Source: Cyclobacteriaceae bacterium (GTDB lineage Bacteria > Bacteroidota > Bacteroidia > Cytophagales > Cyclobacteriaceae). From it: 39,092 bases of DNA. The DNA lies in assembly GCA_026003355.1 (NCBI GenBank), contig BPHC01000003.1:1-39092 (forward strand). Direction: 5' to 3'. The notes under the pieces were generated by a model. The model was given only the letters and a program-made list of their open reading frames with translations, was not told where the DNA came from and made no database searches. Position numbers and translations under genes: made by a program. How positions within the stretch are numbered: the stretch's first letter is position 1; each line of letters opens with the position of its first letter. Of the stretch, positions 1-22,873 are shown piece after piece.

Positions 1-243
1 GGCAGCAATGGTAACGGACGACACTACCAAGACCAAACGGACAGAAAAAACGAGCAGACAATGACACAAGACAAAGATTTAATTTTTGCCCAACACACAT
101 TTTTTTGTTTTTCTGCCACCGCACAAGTGGCACATTTGGTTTTGCCCGACACACAACGCCAACGCTTCGCAAAACCAAAAGAGCCACTTTTTCCCTATCG
201 AACTTAGACAGCGTTTTAAATTTTTAAGTATCTTTACCAGCGA
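1..243. other. Left edge of cassette 1: cassette end and non-coding leader
   Basis: No gene is visible. The first bases (GGCAGCAATGGT) look like positions 4-15 of a cassette left end whose GTT lies just outside the window. They match the reverse complement of the right end at 8563-8577 except at the two positions that differ in most other cassettes here (AA versus TG). The rest is purine/pyrimidine-biased DNA holding the hairpin at 126-188. Assigning the window start to a cassette boundary is inference, because the GTT itself is not in the window. Confidence 0.5.
126..188 (+). repeat. Hairpin family 2, copy 1
   Basis: Arms 126-144 and 170-188 are complementary at 17 of 19 positions. The two mismatches fall in the conserved ACATTTG / CAAAAGAG segment, exactly as in the copies at 8391-8457 and 14011-14070. 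The loop carries a CCCGACACACAACGCC-like run related to the other loops. A short T run follows the 3' arm, so it could act as a terminator, or it could be a recombination or mobile repeat. It lies about 55 nt upstream of the first gene. Confidence 0.65.
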
Positions 244-564
244 ATGAAGTGTTTTTTAATCATATTCAGTGTTTATTTCTTGGCATTATCGCTAATGCCT
301 TGTACTGATGCACTCGGTATGAATGCCCCCAATACTTCAAAAACAGAAATTACTAAAACGCACAATGGCGATGCAGAACATAACGATTTTTGCAGTCCGT
401 TTTGTATTTGTAGTTGTTGTAATACCCCTGTTAATATAACCTTTGATTCGTTTAGCATAAAGGTAAATAAACCTGTCGCAACTTCACTTAAAATACCCGT
501 TTTTAATTTCTTTTTCGCTTCCAATTACTACGGAAGCATTTGGCAACCGCCAAAAATCAGTTAA
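244..564 (+). CDS. DUF6660-like small cysteine-rich exported protein
   Basis: A 106-residue protein with an N-terminal hydrophobic signal segment (about residues 3-20), then a polar stretch with His, Asp and Cys, including the clustered cysteines of CSPFCICSCC (about residues 50-59). Small proteins of this kind (DUF6660) sit directly upstream of heavy-metal RND pump genes in Bacteroidota, and the next gene here is such a pump. The cysteine cluster suggests metal binding in the envelope, but the function is not established. Its stop codon lies inside the 5' arm of the structured spacer at 557-656. The family call rests on layout and cysteine pattern from memory. Confidence 0.6.
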   Translation: MKCFLIIFSVYFLALSLMPCTDALGMNAPNTSKTEITKTHNGDAEHNDFCSPFCICSCCNTPVNITFDSFSIKVNKPVATSLKIPVFNFFFASNYYGSIWQPPKIS

Positions 565-656
565 TGAATTTATGATGTTCTGTAACGCAGAACAAAACAG
601 AATTATTTACGGTGCTTACGCACCGCAAATAATCGTGTATTCATTCATTAAACTGA
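557..656 (+). promoter_or_regulatory. Three-way-junction-like structured spacer before the CusA gene
   Basis: The spacer can fold into a closed three-stem structure. An outer stem pairs 557-569 with 643-656 (13 bp, one bulged base). Inside it lie hairpin GTTCTG/CAGAAC (577-582 with 588-593, loop TAACG) and a longer hairpin, 603-615 with 620-632 (12 of 13 paired, loop TTAC). It covers the stop codon of the upstream gene and ends 9 nt before the CusA start, so it could be an RNA regulator of pump translation, a processing site, or a mobile repeat. The pairing is seen; the role is inference. Confidence 0.5.
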
Positions 657-665
657 TTAAAAATA

Positions 666-3119
666 ATGTTAGATAAAATCATAAAATTTAGTATTCAAAA
701 CAAGCTTGTTATTGGTATAATGACCTTGTTGCTTATCATTTGGGGAGTGTGGAGTGCCACAAAGCTTCCCATTGATGCCGTACCTGATATTACCAACAAT
801 CAGGTTCAGATTATTACCGTTTGTCCTACGCTTGCGGCACAGGAAGTGGAACAGTTGGTGACATTTCCTATTGAACAAAGCATTGCCAACCTGCCCGATT
901 TAGAAGAAACCCGAAGTATTTCACGGTTTGGGCTTTCGGTTATTACGGTTGTATTTGATGATGATGTGGATATATATTTTGCCCGACAGCTTGTCAATGA
1001 AAAACTGAAAGAAGCCGAAGAAAAAATCCCAAAAGGCATTGGCACACCCGAACTTGCACCTGTAAGCACAGGTTTGGGCGAAGTGTACCAATACATCATA
1101 CACCCCAAAAAAGGGAGTGAACATAAATACAATGCCAAAGACTTGCGTACTATGCAGGATTGGATTGTTGCCCGACAGCTAAACGGAACAAAAGGCATAG
1201 CCGAAGTAAACAGTTTTGGTGGCGAACTGAAACAATATGAAGTAGCCGTAAATCCCAACCGCTTAAAGGCAATGGGTGTAAGTGTTACCGATATTTTCAA
1301 TGCTCTTGAAAAGAACAATCAGAATACAGGTGGTGCATACATTGACAAAAAACCAAATGCTTACTTCATTCGGGGTATTGGTTTGGTTACTTCGTTGGAA
1401 GATGTAAAAAACATAGCTGTAAAAAACACTAACGGCAGTATTCCGATTTTTATAAAAGATGTTGCAGAAGTTCGTTTTGGTAATGCGGTTCGCTACGGAG
1501 CATTAACCTACAATGGCGAAGTAGATGCCGTTGGCGGTGTGGTAATGATGCTCAAAGGCGAAAACAGCAACGAAGTAGTAAAACGTATCAAAGAAAAATT
1601 GCCTGTCATTCAGAAATCTTTGCCCGATGATATTGTCATTGAGCCTTATTTGGACAGAACAGATTTAGTTGGCAGAGCAATCAGCACCGTAGAAAAGAAT
1701 TTAATTGAGGGAGCGTTGATTGTCATTTTCGTGTTGGTGCTGTTTTTGGGAAATTTAAGAGCAGGTTTAATTGTGGCTTCCGCTATTCCGTTGTCAATGC
1801 TGTTTGCTTTGGGAATGATGAATGTTTTCGGAGTAAGTGCCAATTTAATGAGTTTAGGAGCTATTGACTTTGGTTTGATTGTGGACGGTGCAGTTATTAT
1901 TGTAGAAGCCACTTTGCACCATTTGGGTTTGCGAAAATCAATGAACAAGCTGACACAGCAGGAAATGGACAACGAAGTTTTTGTGTCCGCTTCCAAAATC
2001 AGAAACAGTGCAGCGTTTGGCGAAATCATTATTTTAATCGTGTACATTCCTATTCTCACATTGGTAGGCGTTGAGGGCAAAATGTTTACACCAATGGCTA
2101 AAACAGTAGGATTTGCCATTTTGGGAGCATTTATTTTGTCGCTTACTTATATACCAATGATGTGTGCTTTGTTTTTGTCAAAAAAAGTTTCACACAAAGA
2201 AACCATTTCAGACAAGATGATGAACTACCTGCAAAGCATTTACCAACCGCTTTTGCAGAAAGCCGTAAAAATAAAATATTGGATTGTTGCTTCGACCGCT
2301 CTACTCTTTGCCTTTTCCCTTTTGCTCTTTAAAAATTTAGGTGGCGAATTTATACCACAATTACAAGAGGGCGATTTTGCGTTTCATTGCATATTGCCAC
2401 AAGGCAGTTCGTTGAGCCAAAGTATTGAAACTTCAATGCAGGCATCAAGAATTATCAAGGAATTTGATGAAGTAAAAATGGTAGTCGGCAAAACAGGGGC
2501 TGCCGAAGTACCTACCGACCCGATGCCACCTGAAGCCACAGATTTAATGGTAATACTTAAACCAAAAAAGGAATGGAAAGAACAGAAAAGCTATAACCAG
2601 CTAGCTGATGAAATCAATGAAGCTTTGGAGGTTATACCGGGTGTATTCTTTGAAAAAAATCAGCCTATACAAATGCGTTTCAACGAATTGATGACAGGGA
2701 TTCGGCAGGATGTGGCGGTTAAGATTTTCGGGGAAAATTTAGACAGTCTTGCCATTTATGCAGATAAGGTAAGTAAGGTTATTCAAACAGTAAACGGAGC
2801 GACTTCGCCACAGGTAGAACGGGTTAGCCGATTGCCACTAATCAATGTAGAATACGATAGAACACGACTTGCCAATTACGGTATCAATGTAGAAGATGTA
2901 AACAATGTAGTAAGCACCGCATTTGCAGGAAAAAGTGCAGGACAGGTTTTTGAAAACGAAAGGCGTTTTGATTTGGTTGTACGGTTAGACAGCACTTACA
3001 GAACCGATATAGACGATGTAAGTAATTTGATGATACCGACCAATACAGGCAATCAAATACCACTATCGCAGGTAGCAACTATCAGCTACAAATTAGGTGC
3101 TCGCACAAATCAGCCGTGA
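666..3119 (+). CDS. CusA/CzcA-type heavy-metal RND pump, N-terminal part (frameshifted)
   Basis: Inner-membrane proton/metal antiporter of the HME-RND family, which exports divalent or monovalent metal ions through a periplasmic adaptor and an outer-membrane channel. TM1 is followed by the usual LPIDAVPDITNNQVQI start of the porter domain. The TM4 motif DFGLIVDGAVIIVE places D401, D407 and E414 almost where CzcA has its proton-relay D402, D408 and E415. The frame ends early at 3119. The next frame continues the family sequence (AQISRESSKRR...), so a single extra base near 3098-3103 breaks the gene. A second break near 3239 leads into the segment at 3290-5035. Intact, this would be one polypeptide of about 1,450 residues fused to TolC. 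It is the first large gene of the metal cassette. Confidence 0.85.
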   Translation: MLDKIIKFSIQNKLVIGIMTLLLIIWGVWSATKLPIDAVPDITNNQVQIITVCPTLAAQEVEQLVTFPIEQSIANLPDLEETRSISRFGLSVITVVFDDDVDIYFARQLVNEKLKEAEEKIPKGIGTPELAPVSTGLGEVYQYIIHPKKGSEHKYNAKDLRTMQDWIVARQLNGTKGIAEVNSFGGELKQYEVAVNPNRLKAMGVSVTDIFNALEKNNQNTGGAYIDKKPNAYFIRGIGLVTSLEDVKNIAVKNTNGSIPIFIKDVAEVRFGNAVRYGALTYNGEVDAVGGVVMMLKGENSNEVVKRIKEKLPVIQKSLPDDIVIEPYLDRTDLVGRAISTVEKNLIEGALIVIFVLVLFLGNLRAGLIVASAIPLSMLFALGMMNVFGVSANLMSLGAIDFGLIVDGAVIIVEATLHHLGLRKSMNKLTQQEMDNEVFVSASKIRNSAAFGEIIILIVYIPILTLVGVEGKMFTPMAKTVGFAILGAFILSLTYIPMMCALFLSKKVSHKETISDKMMNYLQSIYQPLLQKAVKIKYWIVASTALLFAFSLLLFKNLGGEFIPQLQEGDFAFHCILPQGSSLSQSIETSMQASRIIKEFDEVKMVVGKTGAAEVPTDPMPPEATDLMVILKPKKEWKEQKSYNQLADEINEALEVIPGVFFEKNQPIQMRFNELMTGIRQDVAVKIFGENLDSLAIYADKVSKVIQTVNGATSPQVERVSRLPLINVEYDRTRLANYGINVEDVNNVVSTAFAGKSAGQVFENERRFDLVVRLDSTYRTDIDDVSNLMIPTNTGNQIPLSQVATISYKLGARTNQP

Positions 3120-3289
3120 AAGCAGCAAACGCAGAATTGTAATCGGCTTCAATGTATCGGGCAGAGATGTACAAAGTGTGGTTGAAGATATTCAGCAGAA
3201 ATTAAGCGAGCAGATAAAATTGCCCACAGGCTATTACTTTCACTTATGGCGGACAGTTTGAGAATTTACAGAAAGCAAGTAAACGCCTG

Positions 3290-5035
3290 ATGATTGCTGT
3301 TCCTGTTTCGCTGTTTCTCATTTTTTCGTTGCTGTACTTTACATTCCGTTCGGTCAAACAGGCAAGTCTGATTTTTACCGCAATCCCAATGAGTGCCATA
3401 GGTGGCGTGTTTGCGTTGCTGTTGCGTGGTATGCCGTTCAGCATTTCGGCAGGTATCGGCTTTATTGCTTTGTTTGGTGTAGCAGTATTAAACGGAATTG
3501 TCTTAATCGGAACTTTCAACCAATTAGAAAAAGACGGAGTTAAAGACATTTTCAAACGAGTATTTGACGGCACAAAGGAAAGGTTGCGACCTGTACTAAT
3601 GACGGCAACCGTAGCAAGTTTGGGCTTTTTGCCTATGGCATTAAGCACAGGTGCAGGAGCAGAAGTACAAAAACCATTGGCAACCGTTGTTATTGGCGGA
3701 TTGATTACGGCTACTTTCCTTACGCTGTTTGTACTGCCTTTGCTGTATATCATTTTCAATTCAAAAATCAACATCAGAAAAAAAGGAAAAATGAAATCCG
3801 TTACAACCGTAATTGTGTTGTTGCTTTCTGTTTTAAGTTTCAATGCAAATGCTCAAAACAAAAAAATAATTGGTGTAGATGAAGCGATAAACATTGCATT
3901 GCAAAACAACGGAAATATAAAAGCGAAAGATTTTGAAATAAAATCGGCTCAAAGTCTGAAAAGAACATCGGGCGAATTACCGAAATTAGATTTTAATGCA
4001 CAGTTGGGACAATACAACAGTATAAAGTTTGACCAATCTTTTCAAGTAGCACAAACGATACCGTTTCCGACTTTGTTCGGTGCTAAAAAACAACTGATAA
4101 ATGCCGAAGTAAAAGGCAAAGAATTACAAAGTGAAATAACCGTATTGGAGTTAAAAAATCAAGTGCGTACTTATTTCTATCAAATTCAGTATTTGCAGAA
4201 TAATCAAAAGCAGTTGTTGTATTTGGATAGTTTGTACAATGATTTTATCAAAGTGGCAGAACTGCGTTACAAAACAGGCGACACCAAAAAAGTAGAAATC
4301 AGTACAGCACAAGCCAAGCAAGGCGAAATCAATTTATTGCTGAAACAAAATGGAGTTTATCTCAATAATGCTTATCAAAATTTACAGGCATTGATGAATA
4401 CAAAAGAACCGTTTGAAGTTGCCAATGATACAGATTTTAAGCCTTTGCAGGTAAGCACTTTGTTAGACAGCACAGCCATTGCAAACCACCCGACAATTAA
4501 GGCGTTGTATCAAGATATAATCATTGCAGAACAAACAAAAAAGGTAGAGAAAGCACAGGGTTTGCCCGATTTTACGATTGGTTACACTAATCAGTCTTTA
4601 ATAGGTTTTCAAACTATAAACGGACAGGAGCAGTATTTTAATTCGGGCAATCGGTTCAGTTATGTAAGCGTTGGTGTTTCTATTCCTTTGACTTTCGGAG
4701 CTACAAAAGCAAGGATAAAATCTTTGGACTATCAAAAACAAGCCATTGAAGCCAACACCAAGCAACAGCAAATTTTGTTGGAAACACAGTTTCAAAATGC
4801 CATACAGCAGTATCAGCAGGATTTGCAGGAGTTCAATTACTATCAGCAACAAGCCTTGCCTAATGCAAACGATATTGTTTCATCGGCTCAATTAGGTTAT
4901 CGCACAGGCGATATAAGCTATGTGGAGTATTTGTATGCTTTGCAAACGGCAACAGACATTCAGTTGAATTACCTAAAAAGTATTCAGCAGGTCAATCAAT
5001 CGGTCATCAATATTTATTCAATAATCAATCAATAA
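3290..5035 (+). CDS. C-terminal part of the CusA-type pump fused to a TolC/CusC outer-membrane factor
   Basis: The first about 165 residues are the last transmembrane block of the RND pump (for example GIGFIALFGVAVLNGIVLIG, then FVLPLLYIIF). From residue 168 (ATG at 3791) follow a signal-like segment ending in NANAQ and a TolC-type domain with long helices and two repeats (ELRYKTGDTKKVE near the middle, AQLGYRTGDISYVEYLYAL near the end). CusA-TolC fusions are a known arrangement in Bacteroidota. The start at 3290 is only the first possible initiator after the frameshift near 3239; reading back in frame gives family sequence (TYGGQFENLQKASKRL), so the true gene began at 666. Translation of the TolC part from 3791 alone is possible. 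It is followed 6 nt later by the adaptor gene. Confidence 0.85.
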   Translation: MIAVPVSLFLIFSLLYFTFRSVKQASLIFTAIPMSAIGGVFALLLRGMPFSISAGIGFIALFGVAVLNGIVLIGTFNQLEKDGVKDIFKRVFDGTKERLRPVLMTATVASLGFLPMALSTGAGAEVQKPLATVVIGGLITATFLTLFVLPLLYIIFNSKINIRKKGKMKSVTTVIVLLLSVLSFNANAQNKKIIGVDEAINIALQNNGNIKAKDFEIKSAQSLKRTSGELPKLDFNAQLGQYNSIKFDQSFQVAQTIPFPTLFGAKKQLINAEVKGKELQSEITVLELKNQVRTYFYQIQYLQNNQKQLLYLDSLYNDFIKVAELRYKTGDTKKVEISTAQAKQGEINLLLKQNGVYLNNAYQNLQALMNTKEPFEVANDTDFKPLQVSTLLDSTAIANHPTIKALYQDIIIAEQTKKVEKAQGLPDFTIGYTNQSLIGFQTINGQEQYFNSGNRFSYVSVGVSIPLTFGATKARIKSLDYQKQAIEANTKQQQILLETQFQNAIQQYQQDLQEFNYYQQQALPNANDIVSSAQLGYRTGDISYVEYLYALQTATDIQLNYLKSIQQVNQSVINIYSIINQ

Positions 5036-5041
5036 TTCGGT

Positions 5042-6331
5042 ATGAAATTCAATATAAAAAATTCAATCGTTTTTCCTTTGGCACTATGCACTTTGCTTGT
5101 GATAAGCAGTTGCGGTAGCAAAGACAATCATTCGCATAATGACGAAAATACAAAAGAAACAGGTACTTCTGACGGACACAACCACGAAGAAGAAACGCCA
5201 ACCATTGTCACGCTTACACAAGAGCAGATAAAAGCCGTTGGCATCACGTTGGGCAAAGTAGAAAACAAGGAACTCACAGCCACTATAAAGGTAAATGGTA
5301 TGCTTAAAGTTCCAAACAACAACAAAGCAATTGCCACTTCTTTGTATGGTGGAGTTATCAAAACGCTGAATGTGCAAATTGGCGATTATGTAAAGAAAGG
5401 ACAGGTAATTGCTACGATTGCCAATCCGCAGTTTATACAGTTGCAGGAAGAATATTTGACTATTGGCAGTAAAATCACTTTTGCAGAACAGGAAGTACAA
5501 CGCCAAAATGAACTCAATGCAGGAAACGCAGGAGCTTTGAAAAATCTGCAATACGCAACGGCAGAACTCAATACGCTTCGCACCCGAAAAGCATCTTTGC
5601 AACAGCAAATACAGCTAATGGGCATCAATCCAAATTCGGTATCAAACAGCAACTTGAAATCTACATTGGTAGTTACAAGTCCGTTGAATGGAACAATAAG
5701 CAATTTGTTTGCAAAGATTGGCAGTTATGTAGATGTTTCTTCGCCTGTTGCCGAAATCGTAGATAACAGTTCATTGCATTTGGATTTACAAGTGTTTGAA
5801 AAAGATTTACCGCTTTTGAAAATCGGGCAAACCATTCATTTTACCTTAACCAATAATCCTACTAATGAATACGATGCAAAAGTGTTTAGCATTGGTTCAT
5901 CATTTGAAAACGAGAGCAAAACCATTGCCGTGCATTGCACCGTTACAGGAAACAAAATAGGTTTGATTGACGGAATGAACATTACAGGAATTGTGAGTTT
6001 GAGCAATGCCCTAACACCTGCCGTACCCAATGAAGCCATTGTAAACGCAGACGGAAAAGACTACATTTTTGTTGTTACTGATAAAAAAGCGGAAGAACAC
6101 CACGAAGAAGAAAGCGAAGAACACAACCACGAAAGTGAAGACCGTAAACACAGCAATGAAGAAAACGGCAACATCAATTTTGAAAAAATAGAAGTTGTAA
6201 AAGGCGTTTCCAATATGGGCTACACCGCAATAACTTTTGTACAGGACATTCCTGCCAATGCTCAAATTGTAATCAAAGGAGCATTTTTTGTCAATGCCAA
6301 ATTATCTAACACAGGAGGACACAATCATTAA
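5042..6331 (+). CDS. RND periplasmic adaptor lipoprotein (CusB/CzcB family)
   Basis: A 429-residue membrane-fusion protein that links the CusA-type pump to its outer-membrane channel. The N-terminus has a lipobox (VISSC, Cys at about residue 24) followed by a His/Asp/Glu-rich segment (DNHSHND, DGHNHEEE). Then come the barrel/lipoyl halves (GGVIKTLNVQIGDYVKKGQVI and VVTSPLNGTISNLFAKIGSYV) around a helical hairpin. A second His/Glu-rich insert (EEHHEEESEEHNHESED, about residues 350-367) lies near the end, and the C-terminus is GGHNH. The histidine clusters are plausible metal-collecting sites. It lies between pump and ATPase with short gaps, so the genes are probably co-transcribed. The exact metal cannot be read from the sequence. 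Confidence 0.9.
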   Translation: MKFNIKNSIVFPLALCTLLVISSCGSKDNHSHNDENTKETGTSDGHNHEEETPTIVTLTQEQIKAVGITLGKVENKELTATIKVNGMLKVPNNNKAIATSLYGGVIKTLNVQIGDYVKKGQVIATIANPQFIQLQEEYLTIGSKITFAEQEVQRQNELNAGNAGALKNLQYATAELNTLRTRKASLQQQIQLMGINPNSVSNSNLKSTLVVTSPLNGTISNLFAKIGSYVDVSSPVAEIVDNSSLHLDLQVFEKDLPLLKIGQTIHFTLTNNPTNEYDAKVFSIGSSFENESKTIAVHCTVTGNKIGLIDGMNITGIVSLSNALTPAVPNEAIVNADGKDYIFVVTDKKAEEHHEEESEEHNHESEDRKHSNEENGNINFEKIEVVKGVSNMGYTAITFVQDIPANAQIVIKGAFFVNAKLSNTGGHNH

Positions 6332-6343
6332 AAATTAAAAGCA

Positions 6344-8377: not shown

Positions 8378-8390
8378 CAAACCAACGCTA

Positions 8391-8457
8391 AAAGCAAGCA
8401 CATTTGCAAACCGCACAAGGCGACACACAAGCCAAAGTTTGCAAAAGAGCTTGCTTT
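8391..8457 (+). repeat. Hairpin family 2, copy 2
   Basis: Arms 8391-8411 and 8437-8457 are complementary at 19 of 21 positions. The two mismatches fall in the same ACATTTG / CAAAAGAG segment as in copies 1 and 3, while the flanking arm bases differ but stay paired. The loop has CCGCACAAGGCGACACACAAGCCAAAG-like content shared with the other copies. A T run follows (8455-8459), so it could terminate transcription 14 nt after the ATPase stop. Confidence 0.7.
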
Positions 8458-8562
8458 TTCCAACGCACGACAGAAAAAACAAAAAAATCTTTCCACGCTT
8501 CGCAAAAAATTAAATCTGCCGACACACCAAACCTGACAGACAAATACGAACGGACGGAAAAA

Positions 8563-8712: not shown

Positions 8713-8738
8713 AAAGAACGAGACAGACAACTAATGAT

Positions 8739-13984: not shown

Positions 13985-14010
13985 GCGGGACAGATTTCGG
14001 TGCTTCGAAG

Positions 14011-14070: not shown

Positions 14071-14150
14071 TAATTAGAGAAAATTTATTAGATTTGGATT
14101 ACAACTTAATACTTGTCTGACATGTCTAAATATGTAAAACAATATTTGTT

Positions 14151-14525: not shown

Positions 14526-14554
14526 ATCAAAAGAGTTATATAGAATCAAAAAAG

Positions 14555-15709
14555 ATGAATTATATGGAAAAAATCCTACTCACGTTTGTCCTTTGTTTTA
14601 TAGTTAGCTTTACAGGATTAAGTCAACACAACCCTCAAAAGGAAAGTAGTAAAGGGAAAAAGGTCGTATTGTACGATGACTGGCCAGTGACAGTTGAATC
14701 GAATGCTAGTAAGATCAAGTCTTCTGGAGATATCACAATTAACTTTGTTCCCATCGGTACCACATGGGATCATAGGGTTATAACTTTCTTCTTTCAAAAT
14801 GGAACGGATGATATTGCGGGAAACAACGAGCAACAAGCAATAAGGGATGCCTTTGCGTTGTGGTCAGCTCAGACCGATTTATATTTTTTAGAAGTTTGCA
14901 CAGCGGCTAATGCTGATATGGTCTTTTTGTGGGGGGCTTTTAATCATGGTGACGCTGGCCCATTTGATGGAGAGGGTGGAGTCTTAGCTCATACATTAGG
15001 AGGTCCACCCCCAAATTCCTTTGGAGATCAGGCAGGAGACATACACTTTGATGAAAGTGAAACATGGACTTTGGATAATCGCCCTAACAATGAGCAACCC
15101 ATTGACTTAGTTACTGTAGCTGCTCACGAGATTGGCCATGCTCTTGGATTGGATCATACAACTGTATCAGGTTCATTGATGTTATCAAATTATACTGGCT
15201 CTCATCGATTTTTGGGTTCAGATGATATAGCAGGGATTAGAAGTCTATATGGAGTACCTCAAGCAAATATTCCAATAGCGGGTGGAAATATATTATGTAC
15301 GGCAAATTCTAATTATACATTAAATTCTATCCCTGCCAACACTACAGTAACATGGGCTGTTTCTCCGGCAAGCTACTTTGCAACAACCGGTGGTGCTAAT
15401 ACAAACGGGACAGGTGGAACAGCAACAATAAGGGCAGCTTCAAATTTCGCTGGTTCTGCCACATTATCATTTACAATACAAAGTGATTGCAACACTACCG
15501 TGGTTTCAAGGACAATTTGGGTCGGATTCCCGCAAATATCAAATCAAAGAGTAGATGGAAATTCTTATTATGGCCCAACTTATATCTGTCCCGGTAGTCA
15601 TTTGGTGCTGGAAATAAAGTGGCTGGAGGGTTCGATTATGAAGATAATGATTCAAACCCTGATGATACTGGTAATAGTAGCAGTCATGGAACCGCAGTTG
15701 CCGGAATAA
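14555..15709 (+). CDS. Matrixin-like (M10) metalloprotease, C-terminally broken by a junction
   Basis: A secreted zinc protease with signal peptide (about residues 1-23). The catalytic domain carries the metzincin motif HEIGHALGLDH (H191, H195, H201; Glu192), followed by SLMLSNY as a Met-turn and GIRSLYG, typical of matrixins. Residues about 240-345 form a Bacteroidota-type Ig/PKD-like adhesive domain (ILCTANSNYTL...TVTWAVSP...RTIWVGFP). From about 15598 the reading frame leaves this protein. The DNA then encodes subtilisin-family sequence in another frame, so the last about 37 residues are out of frame and not genuine. The real gene would have continued with more domains and a sorting signal. 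It looks like a deletion or recombination joining two secreted protease genes. Confidence 0.75.
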   Translation: MNYMEKILLTFVLCFIVSFTGLSQHNPQKESSKGKKVVLYDDWPVTVESNASKIKSSGDITINFVPIGTTWDHRVITFFFQNGTDDIAGNNEQQAIRDAFALWSAQTDLYFLEVCTAANADMVFLWGAFNHGDAGPFDGEGGVLAHTLGGPPPNSFGDQAGDIHFDESETWTLDNRPNNEQPIDLVTVAAHEIGHALGLDHTTVSGSLMLSNYTGSHRFLGSDDIAGIRSLYGVPQANIPIAGGNILCTANSNYTLNSIPANTTVTWAVSPASYFATTGGANTNGTGGTATIRAASNFAGSATLSFTIQSDCNTTVVSRTIWVGFPQISNQRVDGNSYYGPTYICPGSHLVLEIKWLEGSIMKIMIQTLMILVIVAVMEPQLPE

Positions 15710-17346
15710 TCGGGGCGCAAGCTAATAATGTTTCAGGTGTCGCTGGTATAGCCGGAGGCGATGCCTCAACCGGAAACATAGGTGTACAATTGATCGCTCT
15801 TAGAGTTGGCGAGGATGGTTTCGCTATTGGGAACGTTGTTGAAGCTATTTATGATGCAACTACGTCAGTAAATCAGGGTGGTTTCGGGTGCCACTTATTG
15901 AACTACAGTGGCGGAGGATACACTATTTACAACTCTGTTCGGAAAGCTATCTCTTATGCAGCACACAATGGAGTGATCTTTGTGGCTGCAAAGGGGAACG
16001 ATGACACCACCAATAAGCATTACCCATCTGATTATGCCGATAATCTGGTAATTTCCGTTGGTGCATCTAACGGGTTGGACGAACGAGCCAGTTTTTCGAA
16101 CTATGGAAATAATGTGGATTTTGTAGCCCCAGGCACAACCGACTTACTATTTACTACGAAACGTGTTGAGCAAGATACTTATGGCACATTCAGTGGAACA
16201 TCAGGCGCTGCCCCAGTAGTTACCGGCATAGCTGCACTTTTGAAGTCTGCAAATATTAATCTTCACCGAGATGACATTGAAAACATATTGCAGATTTCCG
16301 CTGATAAAGTAGGCTCGATACCCTACACAAACGGTTATAATGAGCAAATGGGAAACGGTCGTGTGAATGCAGGTCGAGCCTTAGAGTTCCTGCAAGCTCC
16401 TTATATTTTACAACAACACACTACTACGGGTGGCACTTCGCAAAACTTAAGCGGTGATGGCGAGGGGCTTACATTTTTGAATGATGCAGGTAATAGTGGA
16501 CTTGCAGAGGGCTGGTATTACGGCCAAATGTACCAAGTAACTAAAACTGTGAATATTCCTGTATCGATCTGCAACGAAAACTATGTATGGACAAGGACAG
16601 TGGGTGCTACATCTGGTTGGTCAGCCGCCAATCCTAATAACAATTTGGGTTATTCGTTTGTTGTTTCTCAGACATCATCTACAGTCACCCTAAGGACTTT
16701 TGTATACTATATAAAGACTAATTCACTTGGTCAAACGATTAATACGTGGTATCCCACTTCACCACAAAATGCCGTGATGGCATATACGACTCTGACGCAT
16801 TCACCAATTACAATCAGCGGCCCAACCACTGTCTGTACATCAAACAGCACATTTAACATCAATAACATTCAACCTGGAACTTCAATAACATGGAACGTGA
16901 GTTCCAATTTGCAGATTGTATCTGGACAAGGCACCACTTCTGTTATTGTAAAGCAATCATCTTATTATAATTATGGAGCGGGTTGGGTGACAGCAACAAT
17001 AAATGCTTGCGGGACAATGGTAACACTACCTAATTATCAAGTATGGGTGGGTATTCCTAACTCACCAGGAAGTGTGATAGGTAGTACGAGTCCGAATATA
17101 GGGTCAACACAATATTACTATGCAACCTCAGCTGCTTCGGGAGCCTCGAGTCATACTTGGACACTACCATACGAAAATGGCTCATGTACTTATTGCTGGA
17201 GTATTTATTCACAAGGAACACCAACCGCGATATACGCAAATGTGGGGGAAGCTAGTGGATATGTTCAAATAGCCGGTAACAATGTCTGTGGAACCGGAGG
17301 AGCTTCGATATTATATGTGACCCCCAACTGGAAGTGGAGGCTGTGA
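15619..17346 (+). CDS. Subtilisin-family (S8) serine protease, 5'-truncated, frameshifted at the end
   Basis: S8 homology begins at about 15601 (FGAGNKVAGGFDYEDND), right after the junction with the M10 gene, so the N-terminal part with the catalytic Asp is missing. Present are the catalytic His in SSHGTAVAGIIG, the oxyanion Asn in AAKGNDD and the catalytic Ser in FSGTSGAAPVVTG. Repeated Ig-like domains follow (TVCTSNSTFNI...SITWNVSS...), resembling the domain of the upstream M10 protein. The GTG at 15619 is merely the first possible initiator. At the end, one extra C in the C5 run near 17322-17326 shifts the frame; without it the protein would run directly into the T9SS domain at 17396-17662. 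Lacking Asp, it should not be an active protease as it stands. Confidence 0.7.
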   Translation: MAGGFDYEDNDSNPDDTGNSSSHGTAVAGIIGAQANNVSGVAGIAGGDASTGNIGVQLIALRVGEDGFAIGNVVEAIYDATTSVNQGGFGCHLLNYSGGGYTIYNSVRKAISYAAHNGVIFVAAKGNDDTTNKHYPSDYADNLVISVGASNGLDERASFSNYGNNVDFVAPGTTDLLFTTKRVEQDTYGTFSGTSGAAPVVTGIAALLKSANINLHRDDIENILQISADKVGSIPYTNGYNEQMGNGRVNAGRALEFLQAPYILQQHTTTGGTSQNLSGDGEGLTFLNDAGNSGLAEGWYYGQMYQVTKTVNIPVSICNENYVWTRTVGATSGWSAANPNNNLGYSFVVSQTSSTVTLRTFVYYIKTNSLGQTINTWYPTSPQNAVMAYTTLTHSPITISGPTTVCTSNSTFNINNIQPGTSITWNVSSNLQIVSGQGTTSVIVKQSSYYNYGAGWVTATINACGTMVTLPNYQVWVGIPNSPGSVIGSTSPNIGSTQYYYATSAASGASSHTWTLPYENGSCTYCWSIYSQGTPTAIYANVGEASGYVQIAGNNVCGTGGASILYVTPNWKWRL

Positions 17347-17395
17347 CCCTTGTCAACGAAAGAGAAGTGAACCAACAGATTCTGAGGTTGATGAA

Positions 17396-17662
17396 GTGTC
17401 TCTTGAGGAAGATATTTCTGAGGCGATAATAGCCTATCCAAACCCTTCACCAAACACCTTTACAATTCAATTAAATAAAGATATTGACCTTACTAAATCA
17501 CTACATGTTTTCATTTACGATACTAGTGGCCGTCTCATTAAAAGCTATGAAATTGATGAGAGGAAATTTATGATTGACTTGAATGCAAATCCAAAGGGCT
17601 TATATTTCTTGAAGACAACTGTTCCCAATAAAAACTTGAACCTTAAACTTCAGAAGGAATAG
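17396..17662 (+). CDS. T9SS type A sorting domain, the detached C-terminus of the S8 protease
   Basis: An 88-residue segment with the standard C-terminal secretion signal of type IX secretion: AYPNPSPNTFTIQL, then VFIYDTSGRLIKSYE and LNANPKGLYFLKTT. Such domains carry large exoproteins through the T9SS and are attached to the cell surface or released. The coding sequence upstream in this frame (GSGGCDPCQRKRSEPTDSEV) continues back to the S8 gene, so this is not an independent gene but the end of it, separated by a single-base frameshift near 17325. Confidence 0.8.
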   Translation: MSLEEDISEAIIAYPNPSPNTFTIQLNKDIDLTKSLHVFIYDTSGRLIKSYEIDERKFMIDLNANPKGLYFLKTTVPNKNLNLKLQKE

Positions 17663-17676
17663 AAGTTAGTGAAGTC

Positions 17677-17735
17677 GCACACACTTTGGCAGGCCACACA
17701 TTCAGCCCGCCTCCAAAGCCAGTCAAAGAGTGTGC
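17677..17735 (+). repeat. Inverted repeat after the protease genes, possible fourth member of hairpin family 2
   Basis: GCACACACTTTGGCAGGC (17677-17694) pairs with 17718-17735 at 15 of 18 positions. The loop holds CCACACATT and CCTCCAAAG, and the 3' arm contains CAAAGAG, recalling the other hairpins. The match to the family is looser (CTTTG instead of ATTTG). It may be a terminator or the family-2 element at the right side of cassette 4. Confidence 0.4.
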
Positions 17736-17861
17736 TTAATGTAGTGTAAGTGGAGAGAGTGGTTAATGAAAAATGCCCCACCGCACGACTGACTTATGAA
17801 GAGTGGTGTAACATTAACGGGTGACGAAACACACGGCTTCGAATGAAGTGAGGAGAAGGGC

Positions 17862-18050
17862 CCTACTACTGCCAACAACGGCTATTTGCAATTGGGGGGT
17901 TTGGTGTTAAATTGATATTTATGTGTTTCATAATGTAGTTCGGTCACGGGGGACAATTTTACAGCAGGTCGGCTTTAACATTCCGCTGCGCTCCATTTTT
18001 AAAGCCTCCATGCCCGCAACTGCAAATAGCCAAACGTTAGGTGCAACCGT
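17862..18050 (+). repeat. attC-like cassette junction D, long subtype
   Basis: Right-end box 17862-17876 (ending CTGCCAAC) and left-end box 18036-18050 (GTTAGGTGCAACCGT, matching the classic GTTRRRY form). The outer stem pairs CGGCTATTTGCA.TTG.GGG with its complement before ACGTT. The interior has a second stem, GGCTTTAA (17971-17978) with TTAAAGCC (17999-18006), around the loop CATTCCGCTGCGCTCCATTT, shared in form with junction H. The spacer 17663-18281 contains this site, the inverted repeat at 17677 and degenerate copies of site pieces; no gene is supported. Confidence 0.75.
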
Positions 18051-18164
18051 ATCGGACCGACAGTGCTAACATTAACGGGAGTAAAATTAGACACTGAATG
18101 ACTGTCCCCTTTTCGGTTTCATCGACAGACTTTGAGCTAATTTTTAAGTTTCGTGCTTCTATTT

Positions 18165-18184
18165 TAGTTCGGTGTTGGGGGACA
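18165..18184 (+). repeat. Degenerate partial copy of junction D interior
   Basis: TAGTTCGGT-GTT-GGGGGACA here repeats TAGTTCGGT-CAC-GGGGGACA at 17936-17955 (17 of 20 identical). A 13-mer, TAACATTAACGGG, also recurs (17809-17821 and 18067-18079) in the same order. Together they suggest a decayed duplicate of part of a D-type site inside cassette 5. Confidence 0.4.
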
Positions 18185-18281
18185 GTAATTAAGTGCCTTA
18201 CAGACTTTGTTGAAGGCAGGACAAACAGTTCGACACGACAACAACTAACATTTCGGGCAGACAATTTTATAGCTTTACAAA

Positions 18282-18812
18282 ATGGATAAAATAGTAATTT
18301 CAAAAGCAACAATCAACGACATTGACCTGTTACAAAAAATTGGTAGGCAGACCTTTTTAGAAACATTTTCGGCTGGTAACACAGACGAGAATATGCAAAA
18401 ATATCTTGACGAAGCTTTTTCTAAAACCAAATTGACAACAGAACTTGACGACCAAAACGCAGAATTTTATTTTGCCACACTTGACGGCAACGTAATTGGA
18501 TATTTAAAAATAAACTTTGGTCAATCACAGACAGAGTTGCAAGACAACAAAGCCGTTGAAATTGAAAGAATTTATGTACTGAAAGAATATCACGGAAAAG
18601 GGGTTGGACAACTACTTCTCGACAAAGCAATTAAAATCGCAAGACAGAAAAATGCTGACTATATTTGGTTGGGCGTTTGGGAAGAAAATCCAAGAGCAAT
18701 TAACTTCTACAAGAAAAATGGCTTTGTAGAGTTTGACAAACATATTTTCAAATTAGGCAATGACGAGCAGACAGACATTATGATGAAACTAAAACTAAGT
18801 AACAACGAATGA
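18282..18812 (+). CDS. GNAT-family N-acetyltransferase (PaiA-like)
   Basis: A 176-residue cytoplasmic acetyltransferase. It shows the usual GNAT order: N-terminal strand-helix (ISKATINDIDLLQKIGRQTF), the ETFSAGNTDENMQKYL segment seen in PaiA-like polyamine acetyltransferases, the central strand VIGYLKINF, the acetyl-CoA pyrophosphate loop in ERIYVLKEYHGKGVGQLLLD, and motif B ENPRAINFYKKNGFVEF. The substrate could be a polyamine, an antibiotic or a protein N-terminus; the sequence does not decide. It is the sole gene of cassette 5. Single-gene acetyltransferase cassettes are common cargo of integron arrays. The ATG at 18282 is preceded by about 240 nt of non-coding cassette DNA. Confidence 0.85.
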   Translation: MDKIVISKATINDIDLLQKIGRQTFLETFSAGNTDENMQKYLDEAFSKTKLTTELDDQNAEFYFATLDGNVIGYLKINFGQSQTELQDNKAVEIERIYVLKEYHGKGVGQLLLDKAIKIARQKNADYIWLGVWEENPRAINFYKKNGFVEFDKHIFKLGNDEQTDIMMKLKLSNNE

Positions 18813-18817
18813 CAAGA

Positions 18818-18965
18818 ACGGCAGCACCTAACAGCACATTTGCAATAGGCGGGGTTTCGTGCTCCGCAGACAGTTTTGTGGTAGCCGAAAGTTTTGTGCT
18901 CCGAATAAACATTTGTGGTAAAAATCCCGCCCATCGCAAATCTGCAAACCGTTATGGGCAATATT
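18818..18965 (+). repeat. attC-like cassette junction E
   Basis: Right end of cassette 5 (18818-18832, ending GCACCTAAC, a classic RYYYAAC) and left end of cassette 6 (18951-18965, GTTATGGGCAATATT). Arms GCA.ATTTGCAATAGGCGGG (from about 18834) and CCCGCCCATCGCAAAT.TGC (about 18928-18946) form the palindrome. The cassette 5 ends agree at 13 of 15 positions. Confidence 0.8.
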
Positions 18966-19110
18966 GAACAACGAACAGAGGAAAATCAGGCCGCTTAGGC
19001 AAACAGAGAAGTCCTTATAGGTTGAAAATTATTGACCATAGCGGGAGAAGGAAGTGACCCGAACGCTCCCTAAAAAGAAGTAGGGCAAAACTTAAATTCT
19101 TTAAAACAAT

Positions 19111-19965
19111 ATGAAAAAGTTAATCTCATCAATTTTCGCAGTACTTATTTTGGTTTCTTCTTGTAACCAAGAACAAGATTTAAGTCCGGTAAACAATTTC
19201 GAAAAAGAAATATCCTTTCTTACAGAAATGAATAAGAGTGGATTAAATCTGACCGTTTCAAACTTAGGAAAGAATATTACTCCTATTGGTAACAATGAAA
19301 TTACTCTGAATCAAAGACAGTTGGTAAAGGGTATGTTATCTGGTCTTAATGGTCAATACTTCAACGCAGATGAAAAAACCATTATGGATTTTTCAAGCAA
19401 TTATGGTGAGTTAAGACTACCAGACCATTTCGCCAATGCAAGAAAAAATGGCACCGTTGACCTTTCAACATTTGAAATATACAGTGAAGACCAGTTAGCC
19501 TTGGTTCAGCCATTTGTAGATGACCTTTTAAATGAAGAAGATTTAAATGCAACAAAATCTAAAGCAATTTCTTTTCAGCAATCAGTAGTTAGCTCCACTT
19601 TATCTGATGATGAAAAAATACAACTATTAACATTAAGTACCGGAGTGATAAGTTTTGCTGAATTTGTTGAAGATGGAGGTATTGATTTGATTGCTAATGA
19701 ACTTGATATTATATATTCTTCAAATGGTCGTGTACAAGGGTGTAGCGTAAGCTCTCGCAACGTATTGGCAAGTGCAGTAGTTGGATTAGCTGGTGGTGCA
19801 GCAACTGGTGGATACGTTGGTGCGACGGCTGGCACATTTACGGTGCCAATTTTGGGTACAGCAGTTGGTGGAGTTGGTGGAGCTGTTTTTGGTGGAGCTG
19901 CTGGATTTGTTAGTGGACTGATAAGTGGAGTTGCTGCGGAATTGCTTACATCATGTGGAAGATAA
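19111..19965 (+). CDS. Lipoprotein with C-terminal glycine-zipper domain
   Basis: A 284-residue protein with an SPII signal (VLILVSSC, Cys at about residue 18), so membrane-anchored after export. The middle is a soluble helical region (about residues 25-205). The last about 75 residues begin with QGCSVSSRN and switch to a Gly/Ala-rich hydrophobic block with repeated GxxxG spacing (VGLAGGAATGGYVGATAGTF, then VGGVGGAVFGGAAGFVSGL), ending LLTSCGR. Two cysteines bracket the block. Glycine zippers of this type insert into or line membranes and occur in pore-forming and bacteriocin-like proteins. A 64-residue membrane protein starts one nucleotide after the stop. A toxin/immunity pair is possible but unproven; no family is firmly recognised. 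Confidence 0.65.
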   Translation: MKKLISSIFAVLILVSSCNQEQDLSPVNNFEKEISFLTEMNKSGLNLTVSNLGKNITPIGNNEITLNQRQLVKGMLSGLNGQYFNADEKTIMDFSSNYGELRLPDHFANARKNGTVDLSTFEIYSEDQLALVQPFVDDLLNEEDLNATKSKAISFQQSVVSSTLSDDEKIQLLTLSTGVISFAEFVEDGGIDLIANELDIIYSSNGRVQGCSVSSRNVLASAVVGLAGGAATGGYVGATAGTFTVPILGTAVGGVGGAVFGGAAGFVSGLISGVAAELLTSCGR

Positions 19966-19966
19966 T

Positions 19967-20161
19967 ATGGAACTTAAACGAAAAACTAAATTAAGACTTG
20001 CCATTGGCTTTATTTTTCAAGCTTTGCTATTTATGTCCATAGCACCGTTTGGTAGTTTTGACCCTAAGTCAATCGGCTTTTGGGCCTCTTTATTCGGTGC
20101 TGGATTCACCACAATATTGATTTATTTCGCTTTCAAGAAATATGCGAAGTATGAAAAGTAG
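19967..20161 (+). CDS. Small two-helix membrane protein
   Basis: ATG at 19967 begins a 64-residue protein one nucleotide after the previous stop. An alternative upstream start would overlap the neighbour and add a hydrophilic, frame-shadow extension, so the shorter form is preferred. A basic N-terminus (MELKRKTKLR) is followed by two hydrophobic helices (about residues 11-27 and 38-55) and a basic tail (KKYAKYEK), the layout of many bacteriocin immunity proteins and other small membrane proteins. Tight coupling to the glycine-zipper lipoprotein in the same cassette suggests a joint role. The function is not recognised. Confidence 0.6.
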   Translation: MELKRKTKLRLAIGFIFQALLFMSIAPFGSFDPKSIGFWASLFGAGFTTILIYFAFKKYAKYEK

Positions 20162-20345
20162 TGTAGCTAGCAACCAATAGAAATGAATGCGCCCACGATT
20201 CCTTAGAAGAAGAGATTTAATATATCCTTTGGAATTGAGATTGTGGGCGTAATCATTTTATTTGAATTTTTAACAATCAGTTATAAGTAGCTTACATCAT
20301 GATGGAGAATTGACTGAAATTGTCTATTTGAATTTGCCAAGATGA

Positions 20346-20457
20346 AATAAAGCCCATAACACTATATAAGCGTAATGCGGGCTGAACCTGCAAAATTGAC
20401 AGTGAGTTGCTCCGAAATCCCGCACTACGCTTATACTTGACCGTTATGGGCAAGTGT
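20346..20457 (+). repeat. attC-like cassette junction F, short subtype
   Basis: Right end of cassette 6 (20346-20360, ending GCCCATAAC) and left end of cassette 7 (20443-20457, GTTATGGGCAAGTGT). Arms TATAAGCGTA.TGCGGG (about 20365-20381) and CCCGCA.TACGCTTATA (about 20419-20435) enclose a short loop; only 88 bp lie between AAC and GTT. The spacer 20162-20477 otherwise shows no gene. Confidence 0.8.
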
Positions 20458-20477
20458 AAAACGACAGACAACAACGA

Positions 20478-21293
20478 ATGAACACATATCTATTTTTATG
20501 GAACCCTAAAAAGTGGACTTGGACGACACTTGAACAAGACATTGAACAAGTGGACTTGACAGGACGGTGTTCTCAACTTTGGTGTTGTGGCAACACAAAA
20601 TCAATTCAAACGGGTGACAGGATTTTTTTATTAAAAGTTGGAACGGAACCGAAAGGAATTATTGCAGCAGGTTTCGCTACTTCGACACCTTTTTACGAAA
20701 GACATTGGAGCGGAGAAAATAAGGATACATTATACATAGACGTTGACTTTGAAGTTTTGCTAAACCCTGACAAAGAGCCGATCTTGACAGTTGACATTTT
20801 AAAATCAGGAAATTTAGCAAAGCAAAATTGGCGACCAATGGGTTCTGGAAATTCAATTAAACCTGAACTTGTAGACGAACTTGAAGCGGTTTGGTTTGAC
20901 TTCTTGACAACTCAAAAAATAAGACATAACCCATTCATTCCAGCAGACAATGAAATTCAAAAAACATACACCGAAGGAACTCCAAACCAAGTATCAGTAA
21001 CGAAATATGAACGTAACCCATTCGCAAGAAAAAAATGTTTAGAGCATTATGGTTTTACTTGTGTTATTTGCGACTTCAACTTTGAAAAAACATACGGACA
21101 AATAGGAAAAGACTTTATTCACGTTCACCATTTGACACAGGTTGCAACGGTTGGACAGACTTACGAATTTGACCCAGTTAAAGATTTGCGACCTGTTTGC
21201 CCAAACTGTCATTCAATAATTCACAGACAGAGAATACCATTGACAATAGAAGAAGTAAAAAAATTAATTAACGATAATGCTGACAGACAATAG
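20478..21293 (+). CDS. EVE-like/HNH endonuclease, putative modification-dependent restriction enzyme
   Basis: A 271-residue protein with two domains. The N-terminal half (residues 1-140: YLFLWNPKKWTW, GNTKSIQTGDRIFLLKVG, KGIIAAGFATSTPF) has the pattern of EVE/PUA-like modules that read modified bases. The C-terminal half is an HNH nuclease: CVICDFNFEKTYG, the catalytic HVHHL and the second knuckle CPNCHSIIHR, giving a C2...HHH...C2-H arrangement. EVE-HNH fusions are known type IV-like enzymes that cut DNA carrying modified cytosine, such as phage DNA. As the only gene of cassette 7 it is probably a second defence gene in this array. The domain call for the N-terminus is by pattern; the HNH part is firm. 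Confidence 0.82.
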   Translation: MNTYLFLWNPKKWTWTTLEQDIEQVDLTGRCSQLWCCGNTKSIQTGDRIFLLKVGTEPKGIIAAGFATSTPFYERHWSGENKDTLYIDVDFEVLLNPDKEPILTVDILKSGNLAKQNWRPMGSGNSIKPELVDELEAVWFDFLTTQKIRHNPFIPADNEIQKTYTEGTPNQVSVTKYERNPFARKKCLEHYGFTCVICDFNFEKTYGQIGKDFIHVHHLTQVATVGQTYEFDPVKDLRPVCPNCHSIIHRQRIPLTIEEVKKLINDNADRQ

Positions 21294-22308
21294 AACACCA
21301 GCCCATAACATTCGTTTTGCGTCAGGCGGGCTGACGTGCAAACGTGAGGAAAATTCTAATGGCCGAGTTCAAGCAATAGAATGTTTCGAATTTATGATTG
21401 ACTATCCAACTACCATTACTGTTGGAGAGGGTAGTGATGCATATTCGAGCACAACTTGGTATTCAGAATCGTATACTGTGTGTACTACATCAGGAGGTGA
21501 TAGTGGGCCTATCGTATCAGGAGGAGAAAGCATAGGAGGATGTAAATGTGAATCAGCGAAAAATGTCTCGATAATCGATAACGAGCAGATCCAAATTGAT
21601 ATTTGGGAAGATCAGATTGATGACTCCCAGTTAAAACCTTGTTTAAAGACGATATTAACTGATCTCAAAAATATTTCACAAGGTTCCGTTGGGCAAATTA
21701 TTCAAAAATTTTCAGGAAGTCTTCCCGGGTACAACTGGGAACTAAAGGATGGTGTCCTAGCCGGTGGACAAAATGCATTCACAAGTCAGTTTTATAATAG
21801 AACGACAGGAACTGTTACAACTACATTTGATGGAAGTAAATTCACAAGCGCGACCGACCTATCAATAGCAAGAACAATTTTACACGAATCGATACATGCA
21901 TATTTGATTGCCTATTTTAGAGTTGACCCTTTATCTGCAAGAAGCTCTTACCCAGATTTAGTAAATGACTATGCACAACAAGTTTATGGTGGTGATGCTA
22001 ATCAAATCCAACATGGTGAATTTGTAAGAAATTTTGTCAATGATATAGCCATTGCCTTGGAAGAATACGGTAAGAATAAGGGTTACACCCATACAACACA
22101 ATTTTACAAAGACTTAGCTTGGGTAGGTCTTACTCATACTGGTGTGTATGACGCACTAGGCAATCCGATAGAAACTACATGGTTTCAAAGTTCGTTTCCA
22201 AGTGCTACAGATAGAAAGAGGATAGTTGATACAATAACTATTGAACAAACAGGTAAGGATTTTTCGGGAACAATAAAAACTCAAAAAGGCACCAATGCAG
22301 GTTGTTAA
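21277..22308 (+). CDS. 5'-truncated secreted protein with an HExxH metallopeptidase-like motif
   Basis: The open frame starts in the end of the HNH gene and runs through the half attC-like site. Only residues from about 22 on (from about 21340) look like real protein, so the native start and signal peptide are missing. The remaining part begins with an NGRV phrase and a Cys/Gly-rich segment (SGGDSGPIVSGGESIGGCKC). A conserved domain follows with RTILHESIHAYLIAYF (an HExxH zincin-type motif), a downstream HGEFVRNFVNDI that could add ligands, and a C-terminus ending NAGC. Such domains occur at the end of Bacteroidota lipoproteins of unknown role. The next gene overlaps its end by 14 nt. It is probably non-functional, having lost its 5' end when the site was broken. 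Confidence 0.55.
   Translation: MLTDNRTPAHNIRFASGGLTCKREENSNGRVQAIECFEFMIDYPTTITVGEGSDAYSSTTWYSESYTVCTTSGGDSGPIVSGGESIGGCKCESAKNVSIIDNEQIQIDIWEDQIDDSQLKPCLKTILTDLKNISQGSVGQIIQKFSGSLPGYNWELKDGVLAGGQNAFTSQFYNRTTGTVTTTFDGSKFTSATDLSIARTILHESIHAYLIAYFRVDPLSARSSYPDLVNDYAQQVYGGDANQIQHGEFVRNFVNDIAIALEEYGKNKGYTHTTQFYKDLAWVGLTHTGVYDALGNPIETTWFQSSFPSATDRKRIVDTITIEQTGKDFSGTIKTQKGTNAGC
21295..21338 (+). repeat. Half attC-like site G
   Basis: Right end of cassette 7 (21295-21309, ending GCCCATAAC; 13 of 15 match to the left end at 20443-20457) followed by one arm only (TTCGTTTTGCGTCAGGCGGG, then CTGACGTGCAAA). The opposite arm and the GTT box are absent; coding sequence of a truncated gene starts at about 21340. 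It marks a deletion that removed half the site and the front of the next cassette. Confidence 0.7.
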
Positions 22309-22681
22309 GACTACACTTATTACATTGTTACTGTGTACTGCTTGTGCAAGTAAAGGACTATTGGATAAGTCATCAATTGGTGGCAGCTACATTTTAGAAA
22401 TGCACAAATTAAAAGATAATAAAACAATAGTAGCAGGACAATTCTTCCATCTGGAATCAAAATCCGAATCCATACCAGCCTTCATGAATATCAATGGGGT
22501 AATTCACCAAACTGATTCTGGCCGATTTAGTTTTCAGGTTTTACCTGGATCTTATAAAATTCAGGGAGGTTTTATAGGGAAAAAATGGGTTGTGACTCAA
22601 GACATAAATTTGGCACGCGGGGATTCTGTATTTTTAAAGCTTTTTCTAATTGACGACAACCGGCCTCTTTATGAAAAGTAA
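22295..22681 (+). CDS. Small putative lipoprotein
   Basis: A 128-residue protein with a signal peptide ending in a lipobox (LLLCTAC, Cys at about residue 18). The mature part is strand-rich (QVLPGSYKIQGGFIGKKWVV, INLARGDSVFLKLFLI), resembling the transthyretin/carboxypeptidase-regulatory beta fold seen in many Bacteroidota lipoproteins. It overlaps the preceding metallopeptidase-like gene by 14 nt, so the two were co-translated before the front of that gene was lost. No precise family is recognised. Confidence 0.55.
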   Translation: MQVVKTTLITLLLCTACASKGLLDKSSIGGSYILEMHKLKDNKTIVAGQFFHLESKSESIPAFMNINGVIHQTDSGRFSFQVLPGSYKIQGGFIGKKWVVTQDINLARGDSVFLKLFLIDDNRPLYEK

Positions 22682-22686
22682 TTAAA

Positions 22687-22873
22687 AAAACTGTGCACAA
22701 CAAAATGCTTATGCAATAGCGGGGTTTGGTGTAAATTTGTAGCTTTAGTTTTCAAACAACGTTTTGTCACGGTTGACAGTGACGTGTAGGTCGCGCTAAA
22801 CATTCCGCTACGCTCCATTTTTTAGCGCTCCTATTCCCGCCACTGCATAAGCACAAACGTTGGCAGTAATAGG
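22687..22873 (+). repeat. attC-like cassette junction H, long subtype
   Basis: Right box 22687-22701 (ending GTGCACAAC) and left box 22859-22873 (GTTGGCAGTAATAGG). The outer stem pairs TGCTTATGCAATAGCGGG with CCCGCCACTGCATAAGCA. The inner stem GCGCTAAA (22793-22800) with TTTAGCGC (22821-22828) encloses CATTCCGCTACGCTCCATTT, the same loop as in junction D with different but complementary stem bases. The spacer 22682-22990 holds this site and no clear gene. Confidence 0.78.

Follow-up and report, generated by a model that had tools for sequence, protein, structure and literature searches.

The first 39,092 bases of contig C3 of a Cyclobacteriaceae genome (2.76 Mb in 15 contigs), bases 1-39092, hereafter the window, carry an array of gene units separated by seven hairpin sites (A-F and H), all in a single orientation between positions 8568 and 22868. 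Judging from their sequence, the units are cassettes and the sites are cassette junctions. We believe that the array was probably built cassette by cassette by an integron-like tyrosine recombinase without I2, the insert of the classical integron integrase IntI, which is predicted to link the G^TT of a cassette's hairpin site to a matching attI. Every anatomical part of an integron is present somewhere in this genome. As the IntI domain is missing and most boxes depart from GTTRRRY, the array is not filed as a canonical integron, and we propose that it represents a second integron class, I2-less and mostly “reverse”-oriented. An earlier, sequence-only reading of the window had described integron-like cassettes, perhaps of a lineage-specific system, without an integrase in view. 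Both the cassettes and a lineage-specific system are now strongly supported. As for the integrase, a search of the window with the TIGR02249 profile gave no match (those of the genome lie on contigs C5 and C9). This, however, reflects the contig edge: the array reaches the start of C3, where it is cut, so that its left part is missing and its integrase is not visible.

The sites were located with a scanner that looks for AAC, an ungapped stem and CGTT; AAC and CGTT are fixed, so that the presence of GTT or AAC is no test. Six of the seven sites were recovered on the + strand with scores of 33-37, and the seventh (A) was missed owing to a bulge; all seven palindromic junctions noticed before do lie at the positions given for them. 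On the - strand the same scanner gave just an echo of site D (score 30) and one call at 22, and 22 was also the maximum on the + strand of three shuffled windows. The sites of the window are far above chance. In a 21-pair stem, 94.5% of the cells are paired over the seven sites and 14 of the 21 pairs covary on both sides, a level reached in 0-1 of 500 shuffles (slid controls were 35-45% paired), with the stem columns placed by hand, which favours the structure. Over the initial 16 positions of the stem, five of the seven align ungapped, and A and D each have one gap. The length from AAC to GTT is 119-124 nt in 59 of 82 sites. That most boxes depart from GTTRRRY had been remarked already and is borne out: one right box of seven fits in the window (site D, judged by eye). 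When related loci are counted together with the window, the fit is 7 of 93 for the right box and 9 of 93 for the left one (RYYYAAC), the right box being mostly GTTR(T/G) (84 of 93). Pedobacter sp. UBA4863 (L114) has a site that shares 95.8% identity with site E over 120 nt. Rfam gave no match. A covariance model (R1), which the sequence-only reading had suggested, was built and run on the genome itself and 58 relatives. It did poorly on long-loop sites, finding two of the seven window sites (one partly) and matches in 5 of the 58 relatives, for which reason our own scanner was used.

In an integron the circular cassette joins both its ends within one site. The opening box of a unit should therefore complement that unit's own closing box and not the other box of the junction in which it lies, and this is the pattern observed. 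Consecutive pairs in the window, from A-B to F-H, score 6, 7, 1, 6, 6, and 4 of 7, i.e., four of the six pairs are at 6-7. Over 93 sites from 38 loci (site threshold 27, with window site A added by hand) the end boxes match at 6-7 of 7 nt in 41 of 55 consecutive pairs. The two boxes of a single site do so in 6 of 93 cases, and boxes drawn at random from different loci in 2.5% of 8,316 pairs. Along similar lines, 17 of 21 consecutive pairs match in five further array stretches, also scanned at 27 and with site A added by hand.

Comparisons of individual cassettes point in the same direction. The segment 21338-22862 of the window ends at the crossover and shows 98.3% identity, over 1,532 nt, with the cassette that adjoins attI at C5:171 kb. 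The C5 cassette has identical boxes at both ends, and as unit F-H holds a truncated copy of it, we read F-H as a fusion. The acetyltransferase of D-E has 82% protein identity to a homolog in G039, a genome of the same order and another family, 74% in G041 and 60% or less in 16 genomes of the same genus. The DNA homology to the G039 cassette (18035-18954, 75.5%) stops within 3 nt of both crossovers (18036 and 18951), and the paired end boxes have changed together, reading AGGTGC at both ends in the window and ACCGGC in G039, where the copy sits in a different array (L205) with its own I2-less integrase. In G041 the similarity covers little beyond the gene, and no site was found around the homolog. 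Intergenic repeats, i.e., palindromes of the repetitive extragenic or terminator kind among ordinary chromosomal genes, would agree with the intergenic position of the palindromes and with a second palindrome family in the same region, but they are contradicted by the matching unit-end boxes, the one orientation in the window, the placement downstream of one recombinase and the precise cassette homology across families, and we give them next to no chance.

Looking for an IntI-like recombinase beside such arrays, as had been suggested, yielded three genes in the genome, two on C5 and one on C9 (Table 1), matched by TIGR02249 below the cut-off in two blocks that skip the middle insert. All three have the same kind of hairpin site nearby, and the C9 locus has the classical layout. 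The KDR-to-HxLRH spacing is 64-69 residues in the I2-less integrases measured and 107-109 in the true IntI measured; in a comparison to solved structures, residues 183-242 of VchIntIA (60) face 17 in the I2-less integrase. An AlphaFold model (pLDDT 85.6, pTM 0.60) has no helix in place of I2, and among solved structures XerA and VchIntIA come closest to it in fold. Apart from the C9 type (L005), the I2-less integrases that were aligned have an extra N-terminal alpha/beta domain (residues 1-75 in the model of the L006 integrase). The possibility of a fossil array, formerly mobile and now frozen, also has to be weighed here. The mismatched ends of C-D and F-H and the transposase remnant at the right end would speak for it, the 98.3% cassette copy beside another attI of the same genome and the integrase reading frames, which are open with catalytic residues present, against it; we consider it quite improbable.

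A tree built without the I2 columns places 59 I2-less integrases in a single clade (99/85) whose sister group is made up of 17 IntI (100/100); both are joined at 100/98, apart from XerA, XerC, and XerD. This tree holds 90 of 145 rows, namely all sequences from the genome itself and the genus, all with sites at the strict threshold, a third of the other I2-less integrases, 16 of 26 IntI and about half of XerC/XerD; four PDB sequences were added to these. A larger quick tree of all 145 rows agrees, with support for the I2-less clade of only 51, so that an origin of IntI from within the I2-less clade is possible.

The association of enzyme and sites extends over Bacteroidota. Of 582 relatives, the best 80 were taken as our named loci. 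At the strict threshold (29) 31 of the 80 have sites, in every case on the downstream side and running in the direction of the integrase, vs. 0 of 80 when shuffled, and symmetric scoring (threshold 26) gave 82 sites downstream on the same strand. Twenty-five contigs end within 500 nt downstream of the integrase; among loci with at least 1.5 kb there, 30 of 38 have sites on the strand of the integrase. Five of nine 3.5-kb loci around same-genus integrases (L029-L037) contain a site, and no hairpin site was found in 111 kb of XerC/XerD loci. Of 34 loci, 25 have a matching GTT attI-like box no more than 300 nt past the stop codon of the integrase (threshold 27; control, 3.4% of 1,700 draws), and in 24 of these 25 it is 40-138 nt after the stop. 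At L025, a locus of the window genome itself, the attI is just upstream of the integrase, which is divergent. At the protein level, at least 7,978 of 8,000 scored protein clusters match one of the I2-less integrases at E ≤ 1e-60, a figure that does not imply clade membership of all. The sequence-only reading had held that genes and junctions fixed at one locus in all relatives, or palindromes standing alone across the genome, would speak against cassettes. As far as tested, neither is the case: array stretches of different same-genus genomes have no common cassette of 300 nt or more, and the sites cluster downstream of I2-less integrases. Outside the phylum, a contig binned as Micrarchaeota (L098) has an I2-less integrase and, after it, 1.9 kb with 69% identity to a cassette of the window genome (L026), which may be a binning error or a cross-domain transfer, and in Halonatronum (Bacillota, L106) an I2-less integrase is accompanied by a perfect palindrome, twice at attI, and one downstream site.

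The array had also been called a CALIN (a cluster of attC sites lacking an integrase). The term fits in so far as no integrase is seen on the same stretch, where the array is cut by the contig edge; it is not the best label with three integron-integrase-like recombinases near the same site type in the genome, and elsewhere related I2-less integrases head such arrays. A conventional CALIN would consist of divergent attC cassettes moved by a classical, I2-bearing IntI that is absent from the assembly or acts from elsewhere. The genome is 95.4% complete and classical IntI does exist in other classes of the phylum (TIGR02249 over the cut-off in 105 of 395 genomes sampled across it), which would both allow for this. 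On the other hand, the profile is over the cut-off in 0 of 17 genomes of the genus, including the single-contig G001, G004, and G014, whose integrase loci carry sites, and just 1 of 107 genomes with a classical IntI match at E ≤ 1e-60 is of the same class as the window genome (the size of the same-class sample is not stated). An I2-less integrase, by comparison, is found in 10 of the 17 at E ≤ 1e-30, and it is near this enzyme, with its matching attI, that the sites lie. We regard an unseen classical IntI as very improbable.

As to how the I2-less integrase would work, the site on a free circular cassette would fold into a hairpin, the folded bottom strand would be the recombination substrate and the folded site would recombine with a double-stranded attI on the R box only. 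A new cassette would be inserted beside the integrase and later ones would push the older outward. Stem mismatches comprise 175 bottom-strand vs. 52 top-strand G.T pairs (p = 9e-17), and 165 vs. 101 with gaps allowed, the gap-permissive scan giving at threshold 32 80 sites (plus 3 upstream) vs. 7 in shuffled sequence. Because the mismatches favour G.T pairs on the bottom strand, we infer that this strand would be the substrate, as in integrons. At a low threshold the same scan gave 127 sites vs. 45 shuffled, with a bias of 265 vs. 150, and was discarded for its excess of shuffled matches.

Alternatively, the I2-less integrase could move double-stranded cassettes in a Xer-like manner, the long palindrome being two inverted binding arms. 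An enzyme without the helix that docks extrahelical bases, short palindromes seen by eye in several attI regions and closest folds that include XerA are all in line with this. The stem, however, covaries along about 18 bp and is kept while the loops vary, the mismatches are biased toward bottom-strand pairing and exchange is visible at the R box only. Double-strand exchange seems to us unlikely. The capture of single-stranded hairpins by an integrase that never had I2 might define a second integron class across Bacteroidota, in which case capture would predate I2 and I2 would be a refinement of the IntI branch; we put this wider reading forward tentatively, as a serious possibility.

Which integrase would have built the array of the window is suggested by the contig edges. 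The 5 kb at each of 14 other contig starts and 14 ends, plus the C5 end, were inspected, and convincing arrays are found at the C3 start and the C5 end only. We infer on this ground that the array of the window is the far part of an array at whose head stands the integrase at C5:239318-240136, and the orientation is compatible with C5 leading into C3. Low-scoring calls at two other contig starts (L191 and L202, score 29) were not retained, their boxes being unmatched. A hairpin site in the same orientation also lies upstream of this integrase (L026, 13305-13423), so that cassettes may precede it.

Several observations weigh against an array built by the I2-less integrase. According to PMC7790495, IntI cannot capture cassettes without I2. 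The integrase sits on a contig other than that of the window, no sequence overlap was found between the C5 end and the C3 start, and the last box of C5 does not match the left box of site A; at least one piece would therefore be missing in between. Ends are unmatched in two of the six window pairs (C-D and F-H) and in 14 of 55 overall. Symmetric scoring called 4 sites upstream and 1 downstream on the opposite strand, 8 of the 38 loci with enough downstream DNA show no detected site and 9 of 34 have no attI box within 300 nt. Finally, some bulge is present in 47 of 80 sites when gaps are allowed (7 matches in shuffled sequence), and a one-nucleotide bulge that resembles an extrahelical base recurs in L051, so that bulge-free stems are not the rule. 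A control set of classical attC sites around true IntI genes gave 1 site only and was too small for a comparison of extrahelical bases.

With IntI integrons (class 1, the Vibrio superintegron, chromosomal) the present system shares an integrase beside attI, cassettes each ending in a hairpin site, the GTT crossover, complementary cassette ends and a sister-clade enzyme. It differs from them in the missing I2 insert, in the form of the boxes, in the length from AAC to GTT, in cassettes that span 0.4 to 5.2 kb with 0-4 called genes, and in an integrase that in most cases precedes the array and points in its direction. In the “reverse” integrons of the Treponema type the integrase is likewise codirectional with the cassettes; their integrases carry the IntI domain, unlike those described here. 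XerA, XerC, and XerD have the same fold and also lack I2, but they fall outside the clade of IntI and I2-less integrases and, for XerC/XerD, have no hairpin sites at their loci.

Among simple tyrosine recombinases, PMC8138268 recognizes an integron-like subgroup, for which the sections concerned describe neither cassette arrays nor attI. I2 is stated in a passage of PMC7790495 to occur in no other protein. The IntegronFinder rule for IntI, as worded in part of PMC9668308, demands a match to the profile of the IntI-specific domain, and I2-less integrases would thus be passed over. For Bacteroidetes, a 2022 survey (PMC9024848, in the portion that deals with them) gives earlier reports of only In0 and then one complete integron in Salinibacter. 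In the PMC articles searched, preprints excluded and including portions of PMC2426708, PMC8618304, and PMC11551772, we found no description of I2-less integrons. This would be an overlooked and possibly large gene-exchange system in Bacteroidota. Since arrays and attI accompany an I2-less sister clade of IntI, ideas on how integrons arose can be put to a direct test, and the machinery for collecting genes would seem to be older or simpler than has been assumed.

Table 1. Integrase loci of the genome and features of the window array (window positions unless a contig is given)
Feature	Position	Strand	Remarks
Integrase locus	C5:170307-171119		codirectional with sites; 7-of-7 attI-like box about 80 nt after stop
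Integrase locus	C5:239318-240136		codirectional with sites; 7-of-7 attI-like box about 120 nt after stop
Integrase locus	C9:12322-13140		divergent from array; attI-like box ~70 bp before likely start codon, 7 of 7 to box of first site
Site A	8568..8707	+	AAC 8575, crossover GTT 8698; one bulge
Site B	12905..13041	+	AAC 12912, GTT 13032
Site C	13842..13979	+	AAC 13849, GTT 13970
Site D	17867..18045	+	AAC 17874, GTT 18036
Site E	18823..18960	+	AAC 18830, GTT 18951
Site F	20351..20452	+	AAC 20358, GTT 20443
Site H	22692..22868	+	AAC 22699, GTT 22859
First unit	1..8697	+	left end beyond contig; efflux genes
Split RND/outer-membrane efflux genes	666-3119, 3290-5035	+	Pfam ACR_tran, OEP
Membrane fusion protein	5042-6331	+	Pfam HlyD_D23
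P-type ATPase	6344-8377	+	Pfam E1-E2_ATPase
Cassette A-B	8698..13031	+	NurA-like (weak match), HerA helicase, DNA methyltransferase; end boxes 6/7
Cassette B-C	13032..13969	+	267-amino-acid gene, no Pfam match; end boxes 7/7
Unit C-D	13970..18035	+	M10 and S8 peptidases, Por secretion tail; end boxes 1/7
Cassette D-E	18036..18950	+	GNAT acetyltransferase 18282-18812; end boxes 6/7
Palindrome “G”	18089-18198	.	inside leader of cassette D-E
Cassette E-F	18951..20442	+	gene 19111-19965, no Pfam match; end boxes 6/7
Unit F-H	20443..22858	+	HNH gene and 5'-truncated cassette copy from 21338; end boxes 4/7
Last unit	22859..23650	+	two small genes, no Pfam match; no terminal site found
Mutator-family transposase remnant	about 23650-23900	-	right end of array

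Among the cargo of the window are efflux genes, peptidases and, in cassette A-B, an operon that appears defence-like; some units are multi-gene. Its HerA has a match at E ≤ 1e-60 in its own genome only and none in the 58 relatives (59 genomes searched). Unit C-D opens with a leader that is common to cassettes of L040, and is probably a fusion of cassettes. The RND (resistance-nodulation-division) efflux gene of the first unit is split: the first frame stops at 3119 and the remainder, fused to an outer-membrane channel domain, begins at 3290.

Palindrome “G”, which the sequence-only reading had taken for a half site and hence a junction, lies inside the D-E cassette. The leader of this cassette (18029-18255) has a 236-nt match (72.9%) elsewhere in the L205 array, plus three weaker matches of 40-44 nt, and because the long match sits at another place in the array of the relative, we read “G” as a 5' leader element of the cassette rather than a junction. 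It is possibly a carried promoter or regulatory hairpin. The other palindrome family mentioned above, GCACATTTG...CAAAAGAGC, in which two mismatches are conserved, is found in the window at 125-189, 8390-8458, and 14011-14070; its exact pattern has 3 copies genome-wide, all within the window, and one copy is inside the leader of ca. 100 nt common to units of L040.

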